A program made the translations under genes and the position numbers. 64,000 bases of DNA. Source: Bacillus sp. F19 (GTDB taxonomy: Bacteria; Bacillota; Bacilli; Bacillales; Bacillaceae). Positions 5,627 through 53,356 of this stretch are shown here, piece by piece. The number at the start of each line of letters is the position of its first letter. The stretch's first letter is position 1. The notes under the pieces are model-generated. The model was not told the origin of the DNA. It saw only the letters and a list, made by a program, of their open reading frames with translations, and did not search any database. The DNA lies in contig CP085710.1 of NCBI GenBank assembly GCA_023823795.1, positions 3,994,001 through 4,058,000 on the forward strand, written 5' to 3'.

Positions 5627-5650
5627 AAACATGGGCTTTAGCCCATGTTT
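5627..5650. terminator. Left 24-bp target duplication = terminator hairpin between ampS and murC
   Basis: The palindrome core ATGGGCTTTAGCCCAT with AAAC/GTTT extensions abuts the IS left end. The A-tract (5623-5629) is kept on this side, while the T-tract that would have followed is now on the far side of the IS. The matching copy is at 7196-7219 with one mismatch. Confidence 0.85.
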
Positions 5651-5658
5651 CAGACTGT

Positions 5659-5701
5659 CGACAAATCCCCCCTTTTTGGGGGATTTGTCGGCAGTTTTTT
5701 T
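5659..5701 (+). terminator. Terminator-like hairpin at the IS left end
   Basis: A 13-bp stem (CGACAAATCCCCC/GGGGGATTTGTCG) with a short T-rich loop, then GCAG and seven Ts. The T-tract touches the -10-like TATAAT (5703-5708) ahead of the transposase. It would stop host transcription from entering the transposase gene. Confidence 0.75.
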
Positions 5702-5737
5702 ATATAATGAAAATAGAACAATACAGAGGTGATTTGG

Positions 5738-7096
5738 ATGTTGTCTAAAAATAATCAAATGAATCGCGATCAACTAGAAATGATTACACTTGAACAGTTG
5801 GTGCCGGAAGATCACTTAGTCCGTAAAATTGAACAAGCTCTCGATTTTTCTTTCATCTATCCATTAGTAGAGAAAGTCTATTCCGCAGATCGAGGTCGTC
5901 CAAGTATTGATCCGGTCATATTGATTAAAATGACCTTCATCCAATACCTTTTCGGTATTCGATCCATGAGAAGAACCATTGAAGAGATTGAAACCAACTT
6001 AGCCTACCGTTGGTTTTTGGGTTTTGGTTTTCATGACAAGGTGCCCCACTTCTCAACATTCGGTAAAAACTATGAACGGCGCTTTAAGGATACAGATCTG
6101 TTTGAGCAGATATTTTACCGCATCTTAAAAGAGGCGATTGATAAGAAACTGGTCAATGGAGAACAGGTATTTATTGATTCAACTCACGTAAAGGCTAGTG
6201 CTAATAAACGAAAGTATCAGAAAAAAATCGTACGAAAAGAAACGAAATCATATGAGGAAAGGCTCCAAAACGAACTCAATCTAGACCGCGAAGAAAACGG
6301 AAAAAAGCCTTTTCCCCCAGATAAATTTGAACCGGAAGAGAAAGAGATTAAAGAAAGTACGACGGATCCGGAAAGTGGCTATTACGTAAAAGATGAAAGA
6401 ACAAAACAGTTCGCTTACTCATTTCACGCAGCCTCTGACGAAAAAGGATTTGTTCTGGGGACAATCGTTACGCCTGGTAACGTGCACGACAGTGCAATAT
6501 TCGAGCCTCTACTTGATCAAGTAACTGAGCTTCACAAGAAACCTGCTGCTGTTGCTGCCGATGCTGCTTACAAGAACCCTGCTCTTGCTCACTATTTGAA
6601 CGAAAAAGAAATTCGTCCGGTTTTTCCTTATACACGGCCAAAAACAAAAGATGGATTTTTCAAGAAAAGTGATTATGTGTATGACGAACATTTTGATTGT
6701 TACATATGCCCGCACGATCAAGTGCTTCCTTACAGAACTACTACGAAAAAAGGATACAGACAATACTCTTCCGATCCGAAGGTTTGTGAAAATTGCCCAT
6801 TCCTAAGCCAATGTACGGAGAGCCAAAATCATCAGAAATTGATTGAAAGGCATCTCTGGCAAGAATACTTAGATGAAGCTGAACACCTTCGTCATACAGA
6901 AGAGAACAAAACAATTTATGCAAAACGCAAAGAAACGATAGAGCGTGTCTTTGCAGATGCAAAAGAAAAGCATGGTATGCGTTGGACAACGTTGAGAGGA
7001 CTCAAAAAATTGTCCATGCAGGCGATGCTTACTTTTGCTGCCATGAACTTGAAAAAGTTGGCATCCTGGACATGGAAGCCAGCGAAAGCGGTATAA
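5738..7096 (+). CDS. IS1182 family transposase, copy 1
   Basis: A 452-residue DDE transposase. An N-terminal DUF772-type region (RPSIDPVILIKMTFIQYL, about 46-63) is followed by the catalytic core: Asp in FIDSTHVKA (about 146-154), Asp in VAADAAYKN (about 273-281) and Glu in ERVFADAKEKHGMR (about 401-414). A Cys-rich stretch (YICPHD, CENCPFLSQC) lies between them, as usual in this family. The ATG at 5738 is preferred because GAGGTGAT precedes it; the upstream GTG overlaps that site. The frame is intact, so this copy looks functional. Confidence 0.92.
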   Translation: MLSKNNQMNRDQLEMITLEQLVPEDHLVRKIEQALDFSFIYPLVEKVYSADRGRPSIDPVILIKMTFIQYLFGIRSMRRTIEEIETNLAYRWFLGFGFHDKVPHFSTFGKNYERRFKDTDLFEQIFYRILKEAIDKKLVNGEQVFIDSTHVKASANKRKYQKKIVRKETKSYEERLQNELNLDREENGKKPFPPDKFEPEEKEIKESTTDPESGYYVKDERTKQFAYSFHAASDEKGFVLGTIVTPGNVHDSAIFEPLLDQVTELHKKPAAVAADAAYKNPALAHYLNEKEIRPVFPYTRPKTKDGFFKKSDYVYDEHFDCYICPHDQVLPYRTTTKKGYRQYSSDPKVCENCPFLSQCTESQNHQKLIERHLWQEYLDEAEHLRHTEENKTIYAKRKETIERVFADAKEKHGMRWTTLRGLKKLSMQAMLTFAAMNLKKLASWTWKPAKAV

Positions 7097-7151
7097 AAAT
7101 AGTCAACGAATAGGCCTACAAACATCAAATTAGCCCCAGAAATGACAAAAA

Positions 7152-7178
7152 GCATTCGGATAGAGCTCATCCGAATGC
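7152..7178 (+). terminator. Terminator hairpin at the IS right end
   Basis: GCATTCGGAT/ATCCGAATGC with a 7-base loop, then CTTTTG, 56 bases after the transposase stop. It ends the transposase transcript inside the element. Confidence 0.75.
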
Positions 7179-7195
7179 CTTTTGTCTACAAACTG

Positions 7196-7219
7196 AAATA
7201 TGGGCTTTAGCCCATGTTT
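7196..7219. terminator. Right 24-bp target duplication = terminator hairpin downstream of murC
   Basis: Same palindrome as 5627-5650, with T in place of C at its fourth base. The T-tract of the original bidirectional terminator (TTTTTT) is kept on this side, so it terminates transcripts leaving the IS; for murC (minus strand) the hairpin remains but the T-tract is now interrupted. Confidence 0.85.
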
Positions 7220-43019: not shown

Positions 43020-43629
43020 TAAAGAAATCCGGAACACCGACAGACAGCTGTTCCGAAGTTTCGCATTTAGACGGTATCGTTAATTCACTAGCTAAAAAGG
43101 ACCTTTTCCCAGCGGAATTTCAGCTTTTTTCAGCCGTTTTAGGACTTTACTTAGTTTTTGCTTTTTTTGATTTATCCGTTGCTTTGTTTAATTATTCGCT
43201 TTTTTCAAGTATCAGCTACACGCTATTCCAAGTACCCAAAACAGCAAATTGGGGCACTCTATTCAGGAAAAACACTATTCCAGGTACCCAAAACAGCTAA
43301 TTGAGGTACTCCATTTGGCAAATGCGCTATTCCAGGTACCCAAAACAGCAAATTGGGGCACTCGATTTGGTAAAAACACTATTCCAGGTACCCAAAACAG
43401 CAAATTGGGGCACTCGATTTGGCAAAAACACTATTCCAGGTACCCAAAACAGCAAATTGGGGTACTCAATTTGGCAAAAATGCTATTCCAAGTACCCAAA
43501 ACAGCAAATTGGGGCACTCCATTCAGGAAAAACACTATTCCAGGTACCCAAAACAGCAAATTGGGGCACTCTATCCTGCCACTTTATTCACTTATTAGAT
43601 TCGGCTGCACCTCCTTTAATGCGGGGACT
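43020..43629. other. Repeat-filled intergenic region between the ytr operon and yttB
   Basis: From left to right: a CGGAACA/TGTTCCG hairpin (about 43030-43056), decayed TTTATC/CAGC fragments (43110-43215), then the 52-bp tandem array. Open frames across the array (43249-43689, 43301-43633) only repeat the array and have no ribosome site. Confidence 0.7.
43223..43573. repeat. 52-bp tandem repeat array, 6.75 units
   Basis: Units start at 43223, 43275, 43327, 43379, 43431, 43483 and 43535, each exactly 52 bases apart. The invariant half runs CTATTCCAGGTACCCAAAAC then AGCAAATTGGGGCACTC. The other half has two forms, ATTCAGGAAAAACA (units 1 and 6) and ATTTGGCAAAAACA-like (units 2-5). CCCAA and TTGGG within each unit can pair. 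Confidence 0.95.
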
Positions 43630-44034
43630 TTAAAAGCTATACAATTTTTCTTCCACCTTGAATGTAATAACCCCTCGGCTGTCTGCTGATTTTGCGGTAA
43701 TTTTTGCAGAACCCTTGTACCCTTTTTCAAAGTAGCCGAATATCATTTCCTGTCTCAGCTTACCGTTTCGATCTGTGTAAACAAGCTGCATGAAGCTTTC
43801 ATTGAAATCCTCATCAGGAAAAATCGTAATCTCATACTCCTCATTCGGTTTCAGTGCCGGTATGCGTATTTTTTTCTCATTATAATAATAAGTGATTTCC
43901 AAACCGCTGATTTCTTGTTCAGTCAAATTTTCAACGGAGATTTTCATTCCGCTGATGAACACATTTTTAATAGGCAAAATAAATAAGAGCATTAAGATAA
44001 ACGCAATCAGCAAATTTTGAACCCACTTCTTCAT
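43630..44034 (-). CDS. Small membrane-anchored protein, last gene of the ytr operon
   Basis: A 134-residue protein with one N-terminal membrane segment (LLIAFILMLLFILPI, about 8-22) and an outside domain of beta-rich character (EQEISGLEITYYYNEKKIRI, AKITAKSADSRGVITFKVEE). I do not recognise the family. GAGGAGG is 6 bases before the ATG, and the gene begins 48 bases after ytrF, so it is probably part of that operon and may act with the exporter. B. subtilis has no equivalent in its ytr operon that I know. Confidence 0.75.
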   Translation of the reverse strand: MKKWVQNLLIAFILMLLFILPIKNVFISGMKISVENLTEQEISGLEITYYYNEKKIRIPALKPNEEYEITIFPDEDFNESFMQLVYTDRNGKLRQEMIFGYFEKGYKGSAKITAKSADSRGVITFKVEEKLYSF

Positions 44035-50099: not shown

Positions 50100-50674
50100 A
50101 ATTAGAACGGGTGCTTCCTTTTGCAAAATCCATCTTAGCAAGGACTGTTACTCAAGGTGACATTGCAATAGACGCAACAATAGGAAACGGACATGACACG
50201 GTCTATCTAGCAGAGCTTGTCGGAGACAGCGGACATGTTTATGGATTTGATATCCAAGAGGATGCAATAAATGCTACATCATCAAGACTGTCCGATCACT
50301 CTATTACAGACCGTGTGACACTATTAAAAGAAAGCCATGAACATGCAGCTGACTGCTTGCCGAAGAGTATCTCTGGACGGGTAGCTTCAGCTATCTTTAA
50401 TCTGGGCTATTTGCCTGGCGGCGATAAAGAAATCGTCACAAAGCCAGAGTCGACCATTCAGGCAATTGAACAGCTCTTTTCCTTGATGAAGCAGGGAGGA
50501 GTCATCATTCTTGTTATTTATCACGGACATCCTGGCGGAAAAATTGAACGTGATGCTATTTTGGAATATGCCTGTCAGCTGGATCAAAAAAAGGCGCACG
50601 TTCTGCAGTATCAATTTCTTAATCAGAAGAACAGTGCTCCATTTATTATTGCAATTGAAAAAATGCAGGCATAG
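50096..50674 (+). CDS. mnmM: tRNA 5-(aminomethyl)uridine methyltransferase MnmM (YtqB)
   Basis: A 192-residue class I methyltransferase with SAM motif AIDATIGNGHDTVYLAELVG (about 22-41) and GFDIQEDAI (about 50-58), and catalytic-site stretch FNLGYLPGGDKEIVTKPEST (about 101-120). YtqB-type enzymes add the methyl group to nm5U34 in tRNA, giving mnm5U, the step done by MnmC in E. coli. It is translationally coupled to ytqA (ATGA). The terminator after it has been split by an insertion sequence. Confidence 0.9.
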   Translation: MKLERVLPFAKSILARTVTQGDIAIDATIGNGHDTVYLAELVGDSGHVYGFDIQEDAINATSSRLSDHSITDRVTLLKESHEHAADCLPKSISGRVASAIFNLGYLPGGDKEIVTKPESTIQAIEQLFSLMKQGGVIILVIYHGHPGGKIERDAILEYACQLDQKKAHVLQYQFLNQKNSAPFIIAIEKMQA

Positions 50675-50678
50675 AAAG

Positions 50679-50702
50679 AGACCGGGAGTAAGATCCCGGT
50701 CT
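50679..50702. terminator. Left 24-bp target duplication = terminator hairpin between mnmM and ytpB
   Basis: The palindrome CCGGGAGTAAGATCCCGG with AGA/TCT extensions abuts the IS left end; identical to 52248-52271. Confidence 0.9.
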
Positions 50703-52247
50703 CAGACTGTCGACAAATCCCCCCTTTTTGGGGGATTTGTCGGCAGTTTTTTTATATAATGAAAATAGAACAATACAGAGGTGATTTGGATGTTGTCTAA
50801 AAATAATCAAATGAATCGCGATCAACTAGAAATGATTACACTTGAACAGTTGGTGCCGGAAGATCACTTAGTCCGTAAAATTGAACAAGCTCTCGATTTT
50901 TCTTTCATCTATCCATTAGTAGAGAAAGTCTATTCCGCAGATCGAGGTCGTCCAAGTATTGATCCGGTCATATTGATTAAAATGACCTTCATCCAATACC
51001 TTTTCGGTATTCGATCCATGAGAAGAACCATTGAAGAGATTGAAACCAACTTAGCCTACCGTTGGTTTTTGGGTTTTGGTTTTCATGACAAGGTGCCCCA
51101 CTTCTCAACATTCGGTAAAAACTATGAACGGCGCTTTAAGGATACAGATCTGTTTGAGCAGATATTTTACCGCATCTTAAAAGAGGCGATTGATAAGAAA
51201 CTGGTCAATGGAGAACAGGTATTTATTGATTCAACTCACGTAAAGGCTAGTGCTAATAAACGAAAGTATCAGAAAAAGATCGTACGAAAAGAAACGAAAT
51301 CATATGAGGAAAGGCTCCAAAACGAACTCAATCTAGACCGCGAAGAAAACGGAAAAAAGCCTTTTCCCCCAGATAAATTTGAACCGGAAGAGAAAGTGAT
51401 TAAAGAAAGTACGACGGATCCGGAAAGTGGCTATTACGTAAAAGATGAAAGAACAAAACAGTTCGCTTACTCATTTCACACAGCCTCTGACGAAAAAGGA
51501 TTTGTTCTGGGGACAATCGTTACGCCTGGTAACGTGCACGACAGTGCAATATTCGAGCCTCTACTTGATCAAGTAACTGAGCTTCACAAGAAACCTGTTG
51601 CTGTTGCTGCCGATGCTGCTTACAAGAACCCTGCTCTTGCTCACTATTTGAACGAAAAAGAAATTCGTCCGGTTTTTCCTTATACACGGCCAAAAACAAA
51701 AGATGGATTTTTCAAGAAAAGTGATTATGTGTATGACGAACATTTTGATTGTTACATATGCCCGCACGATCAAGTGCTTCCTTACAGAACTACTACGAAA
51801 AAAGGATACAGACAATACTCTTCCGATCCGAAGGTTTGTGAAAATTGCCCATTCCTAAGCCAATGTACGGAGAGCCAAAATCATCAGAAATTGATTGAAA
51901 GGCATCTCTGGCAAGAATACTTAGATGAAGCTGAACACCTTCGTCATACAGAAGAGAACAAAACAATTTATGCAAAACGCAAAGAAACGATAGAGCGTGT
52001 CTTTGCAGATGCAAAAGAAAAGCATGGTATGCGTTGGACAACGTTGAGAGGACTCAAAAAATTGTCCATGCAGGCGATGCTTACTTTTGCTGCCATGAAC
52101 TTGAAAAAGTTGGCATCCTGGACATGGAAGCCAGCGAAAGCGGTATAAAAATAGTCAACGAATAGGCCTACAAACATCAAATTAGCCCCAGAAATGACAA
52201 AAAGCATTCGGATAGAGTTCATCCGAATGCCTTTTGTCTACAATCTG
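50703..52247 (+). mobile_element. IS1182-type insertion sequence, copy 2 (1545 bp)
   Basis: Same ends, length, orientation and internal hairpins (left 50711-50753, right 52204-52230) as copy 1. The right-end base triplet before CTG differs (AAT here, AAA in copy 1). The flanking 24-bp direct repeats are identical, consistent with a recent insertion. Confidence 0.95.
50790..52148 (+). CDS. IS1182 family transposase, copy 2
   Basis: A 452-residue intact DDE transposase, differing from copy 1 at three residues seen by eye: Val for Glu in EEKVIKE, Thr for Ala in YSFHTASD, and Val for Ala in KKPVAVAAD. Catalytic motifs and start choice are as for copy 1 (GAGGTGAT before the ATG at 50790). Confidence 0.92.
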   Translation: MLSKNNQMNRDQLEMITLEQLVPEDHLVRKIEQALDFSFIYPLVEKVYSADRGRPSIDPVILIKMTFIQYLFGIRSMRRTIEEIETNLAYRWFLGFGFHDKVPHFSTFGKNYERRFKDTDLFEQIFYRILKEAIDKKLVNGEQVFIDSTHVKASANKRKYQKKIVRKETKSYEERLQNELNLDREENGKKPFPPDKFEPEEKVIKESTTDPESGYYVKDERTKQFAYSFHTASDEKGFVLGTIVTPGNVHDSAIFEPLLDQVTELHKKPVAVAADAAYKNPALAHYLNEKEIRPVFPYTRPKTKDGFFKKSDYVYDEHFDCYICPHDQVLPYRTTTKKGYRQYSSDPKVCENCPFLSQCTESQNHQKLIERHLWQEYLDEAEHLRHTEENKTIYAKRKETIERVFADAKEKHGMRWTTLRGLKKLSMQAMLTFAAMNLKKLASWTWKPAKAV

Positions 52248-52271
52248 AGACCGGGAGTAAGATCCCGGTCT
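52248..52271. terminator. Right 24-bp target duplication = terminator hairpin downstream of ytpB
   Basis: Exact copy of 50679-50702, followed by TTTTTAAG, so it still ends + strand transcription leaving the IS. It lies 3 bases from the ytpB stop codon. Confidence 0.9.
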
Positions 52272-52273
52272 TT

Positions 52274-53356
52274 TTAAGAGCTTCTTGAGGCAGCAAGCTT
52301 CTGAATAGCACGGTATGCCCTCCCATTCCAGTAAAAGAACGAAGACGTTTTTCCGCCTAGTTTGATTAAATGTCTGGCAAGCTTTCCGAGATCTTTTCTT
52401 GAGGTTACTTTCTCGTCGGATAAATAAACGCCAAGCAGTCCTCTATGAATGAGTTTATGAAAGTTTTCATGAGGGATTCCGCTGAGGTTGGATTCAGCCT
52501 GCAGGACGAAATGCTCAAGCCTCTTCATCATTTCCTTCTCGGTCTCATAGTAATTGCAGAAATTCAAATCTCCGCCAATTCGATCTTCTTCTTGATCAAT
52601 TAAATAGTCGAGCAGAATATGCAGGCCTTGAACGTATGGAAAATAGCTTTCACGGATCCGGAAGGCTTCCCTTTCGTTGAAGTCCTCTCTGAATGCGTAA
52701 GAGACCAGACAAAAAATGCCTAAAGTAGACCCCGCGCACGCAGAGAATTCATACCACTGCATATCCGGCAATCCATGTTTGTTTTTTTCAAACCATGTTT
52801 CAAGCCTCGGAATGCGCTCATCTATTTTTACATGCTTATGTACTTGTAAATCACAGTAATAACACGACAATTCGAGTAAATGTTCTGCAATTAGAGGGTA
52901 GTTGCCGAGTCTGCTTAATATATTTTGGCATGTAGATACGAGAGCGTGCAAGTATCCGCCGTCATTTTGATCTGTCCGGTAAGAATAATAATTTTTCAGC
53001 GGTGCTCCTGCACTCAGAGCATCATTCATTGCTTGGTGCAGCATCGCGAAATCCAATGGATCAAGTGATGTACTTCGATCACATAAATTATCAAGATAAT
53101 CACTTATCGTCTGATAAGCGACAATAAATTCAATGCATTCATGCTTGTTAGCTTCTGACAAAAGCGCAAAAATCCCTCCGCCCTCACAGTGGAAGGATTT
53201 ACCATTTATACTTGACAGCGCCTGATTTCTAAGCTCTGCGTTTGGAATCTGATTGGCTTTTTCTCTCCATTTATCCAGATGGACATGCACAACCGGAAAA
53301 ATATCTTTATAAATTTTCGCCATTAATCGCAGCGGATGCTGCGGAATTGCCGTCAA
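52274..53356 (-). CDS. ytpB: Tetraprenyl-beta-curcumene synthase YtpB
   Basis: A 360-residue DUF2600 terpene cyclase that converts tetraprenyl diphosphate to tetraprenyl-beta-curcumene, a precursor of sesquarterpenes (baciterpenols) in Bacillus. The acidic metal motif is SDYLDNLCDR (about 85-94). The start is best placed at the TTG at 53356 (MTAIPQHPLRLM), matching B. subtilis, with AGAGGTGAT just upstream; the GTG at 53365 overlaps that site. It lies 19 bases after ytpA and forms an operon with it. Confidence 0.9.
   Translation of the reverse strand: MTAIPQHPLRLMAKIYKDIFPVVHVHLDKWREKANQIPNAELRNQALSSINGKSFHCEGGGIFALLSEANKHECIEFIVAYQTISDYLDNLCDRSTSLDPLDFAMLHQAMNDALSAGAPLKNYYSYRTDQNDGGYLHALVSTCQNILSRLGNYPLIAEHLLELSCYYCDLQVHKHVKIDERIPRLETWFEKNKHGLPDMQWYEFSACAGSTLGIFCLVSYAFREDFNEREAFRIRESYFPYVQGLHILLDYLIDQEEDRIGGDLNFCNYYETEKEMMKRLEHFVLQAESNLSGIPHENFHKLIHRGLLGVYLSDEKVTSRKDLGKLARHLIKLGGKTSSFFYWNGRAYRAIQKLAASRSS

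Follow-up and report, generated by a model that had tools for sequence, protein, structure and literature searches.

Insertion of an IS1182-family element at terminator hairpins, with duplication of the whole hairpin

Two copies of one insertion sequence lie in the stretch of Bacillus sp. F19 DNA analysed here (the window: 64,000 nucleotides of contig CP085710.1), each between two copies of a short hairpin. What marks such a target, its sequence or its folded form, and how does a whole hairpin come to be duplicated? A preliminary description of the window had favoured the form. The features concerned are the following, in window coordinates:

5627..5650, no strand: left copy of the hairpin at element copy 1, 24 bp
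5651..7195, + strand: element copy 1, an IS1182-family insertion sequence
7196..7219, no strand: right copy of the hairpin at element copy 1, with a one-base difference from 5627..5650
50679..50702, no strand: left copy of the duplicated terminator hairpin of copy 2, 24 bp; a single matching hairpin lies at the empty site in genome G006
50703..52247, + strand: element copy 2, an IS1182-family insertion sequence of 1,545 bp, ends CAG...CTG
50704..50749, + strand: left-end hairpin of element copy 2, stem from nucleotide 2, then a T run (fold, and covariation in 21 chosen left ends)
50790..52148, + strand: transposase gene of copy 2, intact, with DUF772 and DDE domains
52204..52230, + strand: right-end hairpin of element copy 2 (fold)
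52248..52271, no strand: right copy of the duplicated terminator hairpin of copy 2, 24 bp

The direct repeats around copy 2 are 24 bp long without a mismatch and form a hairpin with 9-bp arms and a 6-nt loop; the exact hairpin duplication reported at 50679..52271 was thus confirmed, with an IS1182-family element between the repeats. The transposase passes the NCBIfam model of that family (NF033551, 483.8 bits for a cut-off of 270), and PF05598, PF13751 and PF01609, that is the DUF772 and DDE transposase domains, all score above cut-off. Terminal inverted repeats, another feature of the IS1182 family, are present as CAGACTGTCGACAAA at the left end and, read as the reverse complement, CAGATTGTAGACAAA at the right end. 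As first described, the hairpin lies between convergent genes, one for a PF06962 methylase (end at 50674) and one for a DUF2600 protein (end at 52274), which we take to be mnmM and ytpB. The primary sequences of the two window hairpins are indeed unrelated; exactness, however, does not extend to copy 1, whose repeats differ at one base. Elsewhere in the window, tandem repeats with a 52-bp spacing occupy 43168-43635.

A DNA search of the assembly returned 17 matches, made up of 13 full copies, the two halves of a split copy (L014 and L015) and a further disrupted copy in two pieces (L016 and L017). The full copies match at 99-100% identity, and the survey that the preliminary description had proposed finds every one of them in a duplicated whole hairpin, 12 of the 13 repeat pairs being exact. 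The duplications measure 19, 20, 24, 24, 24, 24, 25, 26, 26, 27, 28, 28 and 29 bp; this range rejects a fixed 24-bp duplication, and the equal length at the two window copies, although real, is a coincidence. The duplications made by DDE transposases usually have a single length, given by how far apart the two active sites lie; with this element the length varies with the hairpin, pointing to a target that is folded. The outer ends of both halves of the split copy carry the same hairpin in the printed flanks. In a protein search of the genome, only the two window copies gave an end-to-end match without a stop or frame change; L013 keeps a 458-codon open frame, but its middle part matches in another frame.

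Two disrupted copies are interrupted by other DNA. The halves of the split copy are about 37 kb apart (L172, L173; G000:C1:2736500-2776300), and the insert includes, as judged by eye from translations, arsenic-pump-like genes and, close to one end, a gene resembling that of a tyrosine recombinase. In a third disrupted copy (L171 1770-3540; G000:C1, about 4250270-4252040), the element's own left-end hairpin is broken by a cassette of about 1.7 kb, in which a 403-codon gene, UDP-sugar pyrophosphorylase-like by eye, lies between inverted ends holding GGGGCCACTATGG. This insertion shows a 13-nt palindromic overlap, and the 13-mer is present five times in the genome.

Sister genomes were used to see the sites without the element. 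G006 and G001, with 98% and 95% identity over a 1,500-base flank, contain no full element (one 49-nt match in G006, one 352-nt match at 84% in G001). The loci were placed by one query of thirteen joined flanks, which gave 26 comparisons; 24 spanned the site, the exceptions being L013 in G006 and L004 in G001, the latter with an eroded hairpin. For each of the 13 sites, one sister genome or both have a single hairpin and no element. At seven of them (L001, L004, L006, L007, L008, L010 and L011) this hairpin is letter-identical to the duplication, and at the other six it differs by a few bases. Since a single hairpin stands at the empty sites, the flanking hairpins are duplications of a pre-existing terminator; that they belong to the element is ruled out by the matching hairpin at 13 of 13 loci.

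The analysis was extended by a scan of genome contigs, in which the best 80 of 526 relatives were kept (72-78% identity, many from a few genomes), making 93 loci with the 13 own copies. A locus counted as a site when direct repeats of 15 nt or more were anchored at the ends of the element, and 67 of these best 80 relatives showed a hairpin duplication, each of another sequence. The resulting 80 sites (13 own and 67 related) have repeats of 19-35 nt, all different in sequence and 78 of them exact. The 13 loci left out lacked an end, ran into a contig edge or had unequal flanks; all have a hairpin at one end or both, as scanned by eye in the printed flanks and unscored. At least seven symmetric pairs were found in 80/80 sites against 1,646 of 16,000 control windows, and at least six contiguous outer pairs in 66/80 against 64 of 16,000. 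Chance is excluded by this last comparison together with the existence of the sites, empty, in sister genomes. In 76 of the 80 sites the centre of the repeat coincides with the hairpin dyad. These sequence comparisons give good support to insertion guided by structure, in which the whole hairpin is duplicated.

The inner pairs 5-8 show hardly any preference for particular letters (1.8-2.0 bits), but 75-79 of the 80 sites pair there, where shuffling gives 20-24. Near-random letters that still pair indicate that structure marks the target, and a sequence-specific site was rejected on this ground, there being no stem consensus and 80 different repeats. At the foot of the hairpin the picture is different: the first base of the duplication is A in 69/80 sites, the base outside it is A in 66/80, and A/T tracts flank at least one side in 78/80, two sites having no tract on either side. 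We compared tracts between targets and background hairpins for perfect stems of at least 8 pairs, which leaves 67 targets (13 of the 80 have no such stem) and 64 background hairpins. Tracts on both sides occur in 26/67 targets against 6/64 background hairpins, and no tract in 8/67 against 41/64. This enrichment, with the A at the foot, reveals a sequence, or terminator, component at the hairpin foot, which counts against a view based on extrusion only. The site alignments give strong support to a hairpin structure marking the target, with A/T preferred next to its foot. The initial claim of hairpin form without sequence thus holds for the 13 own copies, for 67 of the best 80 of 526 relatives and for the pairing at near-random letters, but it has to make room for the preference at the foot.

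Where the strands are cut can be approached from the same alignment. The pairing requirement begins sharply at position 2, one nucleotide inside the duplication: among rows other than A:T, 21/23 pair at position 2, 2/17 at position 1 and 4/22 just outside. The simplest reading is that each strand would be cut one nucleotide beyond the stem that is needed. The slight surplus of pairs just outside the cut (62 against 56.2 expected) counts against a strict rule, and 22 distant sites covary at position 1 too (20 against 13.6), so that the one-nucleotide offset may not hold family-wide. A cut exactly at the end of pairing was considered and dropped, since 62/80 sites have at least one further Watson-Crick pair outside. 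The spread of the cut position is smallest when measured from the first G:C pair (SD 1.10, 79 sites), compared with 1.79 from the dyad and 2.58 from the stem end.

The equal orientation of the two window copies relative to the + strand gene had been put forward as a shared property, but it is not general. The T-tract side is divided 31 to 31, with 18 ties, over the 80 sites, and 6 of the 13 own copies are co-directional with the replication fork (dnaA at C1:22, chromosome position 22); neither measure showed an orientation bias. Most sites are intergenic, with neighbours convergent in 33, in the two tandem orders in 24 and 15 (p 0.20), divergent in four and otherwise placed in four, one of which lies within an open frame. 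A rule of orientation or fork direction was rejected on these counts.

The element also carries hairpins of its own. In the own copies the left end is a C, followed by a stem from nucleotide 2 and, after it, a T run. Twenty-one left ends were chosen out of 38 distinct ones; their 18-pair stem pairs in 93.1% of cells, six pairs change on both sides, and none of 500 shuffles reached any of five measures of covariation. Of the 80 sites, 78 have a hairpin at the left end of the element and 79 at its right end. The T run beside the chosen left hairpin passes the cut-off in 31/80, and the term terminator-like is therefore firm for the left end of the own copies, not for all.

How might such an element duplicate a hairpin? 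We think it probable that this IS1182-family DDE element targets a DNA hairpin, usually an intrinsic terminator, and that attack at the foot of a cruciform followed by gap repair duplicates the hairpin entirely. The target palindrome would extrude as a cruciform, the likeliest physical target, and the two 3' ends of the element would then attack each strand at the 5' foot of the hairpin, roughly one nucleotide beyond its stem. Repair of the gaps would copy the whole stem-loop on both sides, which would make the duplication as long as the hairpin. A cut of the same geometry is probable for the left-end hairpin, with its stem from nucleotide 2; extrusion, this chemistry and a single activity acting on both hairpins are what we infer.

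The site could also be opened by transcription, through the nascent terminator hairpin or a paused polymerase with its RNA-DNA hybrid, rather than by spontaneous extrusion. The A/T tracts on at least one side of 78/80 sites, the higher frequency of A/T-flanked hairpins in targets than in background, and the excess of convergent (33/80) over divergent (4/80) neighbours all fit this explanation. On the other hand, the repeat is symmetric about the dyad in 76/80 sites, two sites have no A/T tract on either side and the T-tract side is evenly split, though the near-symmetric element ends would mask a strand preference. We regard opening by transcription as rather unlikely, although transcription may have a role. 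That the transposase reads two inverted A/T-rich half-sites at the foot, the stem being incidental because terminators have stems, is very improbable in our opinion: the A at the first base (69/80) and outside it (66/80) speaks for it, but the half-sites are 19-35 bp apart, at odd and even spacings, so that the hairpin and not one fixed spacing sets the length. Moreover, background stems occur apart from tracts (41/64), yet 0/80 sites are without a stem.

Random insertion, with selection keeping harmless sites such as terminators, would account for the mostly intergenic positions, and hairpins belonging to the element would be in line with the strong left-end hairpin and T run of the own copies. 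We give these ideas practically no credit: the matching hairpin at the empty sites of 13/13 loci refutes them, the hairpins differ among copies of a 99-100% identical element, and selection cannot centre a repeat on a dyad. The preferred reading remains attack at the foot of an extruded hairpin.

More distant relatives show a second mode of insertion. Among 40 loci at 25-67% identity, 22 are hairpin duplications, three have hairpins at both ends without a repeat, six have a hairpin at one end, six have 7-bp repeats, one (L144) lacks a hairpin but has an 8-bp repeat, and two are unclassed. L162, L163 and L165-L167 were classed as 7-bp loop sites from their repeats, their score of a hairpin at one end arising because the loop arms were counted. 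Twenty further loci comprise 14 hairpin duplications of 17-29 nt, the weakest being L229 with a 6-bp stem, two with 7-bp repeats, two without a repeat and two (L222 and L236) kept unclassed because the end is ambiguous or misplaced. Insertion into a target lacking a palindrome, which if frequent would have spoken against a structural target, was thus seen at L144 but is rare. In G398, L220 and L221 have no repeat at their ends and have perhaps recombined with each other or with other copies.

The arms on either side of all eight 7-bp repeats (G291, G144 and G398) pair outward, which places the repeat in a hairpin loop. The three elements form one clade (100/100), joined to hairpin-duplicating elements with support 93/88 in a tree whose long branches make deeper joins unsure. 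They thus share homologous transposases and hairpin sites with the copy 2 element, but differ from it by a fixed 7-bp loop duplication and by left ends whose folds are weak (-3.2 to -8.9 kcal/mol) and have no end stem. Those hairpin-duplicating elements that were folded, one locus from each of 16 genomes (10 + 6), all have a left-end stem, not always from nucleotide 2 (it lies further in for L138 and L151). Tentatively, the transposase may be a structure-specific hairpin cutter that cuts its own end and the target about 1 nt 5' of the stem foot and joins like to like; loss of the end hairpin in one lineage would have moved the cut to the loop and fixed the duplication at 7 bp. We consider this possible but doubtful, since the loss of the end stem with the 7-bp mode is a single evolutionary contrast and suggestive only. 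Three of the five sites in G291 (L163, L165 and L167) have a similar AT-rich palindromic motif and similar surroundings, perhaps a dispersed repeat serving as target.

Hairpin targeting has precedents in this family. IS1272, another member of the IS1182 family, inserts at hairpins that have no sequence consensus and deletes or replaces them (Furi 2016, PMC4923244; Wan 2017, PMC5678879); three IS1272 copies with non-hairpin targets and three with unknown targets also appear in Wan 2017 (PMC5678879). A 2015 review, as cited in PMC4923244 and PMC5678879, states that some members target palindromes, as does our element, and a 2025 paper (PMC12056078) says that transposases related to IS1182 may or may not produce a duplication and that either a sequence or a structure may be recognised. 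The preliminary description would have yielded to prior documentation of a simple sequence-specific site; what is in print is palindrome or hairpin targeting by family members (PMC4923244, PMC5678879). IS1272 and TnSha1, placed in the IS1182 family by those papers, resemble the copy 2 element in their hairpin targets, often terminators, without a common sequence, but their hairpin is partly deleted or replaced and no target is duplicated (PMC4923244, PMC5678879). Our element likewise uses hairpin targets without consensus (80 sites), but it duplicates the whole hairpin at 13/13 own copies, single at the empty sites. A limited literature search found no paper describing whole-hairpin duplication beyond a pathway drawn by Wan (PMC5678879), in which two drawings correspond to the two modes seen here, whole hairpin and 7-bp loop. 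Because hairpin targeting by the IS1182 family is already known, what is new is the demonstration itself, together with the geometry of the cut and the connection to the element's own hairpins. ISfinder presumably lists long duplications for the family, and curators may have noted whole-hairpin duplication. Group IIC introns insert at terminators and use reverse transcriptase, and IS200/IS605 elements use hairpins at their own ends with HUH chemistry; our element, in contrast, has a DDE transposase. Fork-tied orientation, the defining feature of single-strand transposition of the IS200/IS605 type, is not seen in it (6/13 co-directional).

Duplications as long as the hairpin offer a handle, readable from sequence, for asking whether extrusion of short palindromes takes place in living cells. 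The results also suggest that the element may multiply in terminators with little harm, as a hairpin stays on both sides and the element has end hairpins of its own. Finally, the occurrence of foot and loop modes within one family provides natural material for finding the part of the protein that sets the cut.
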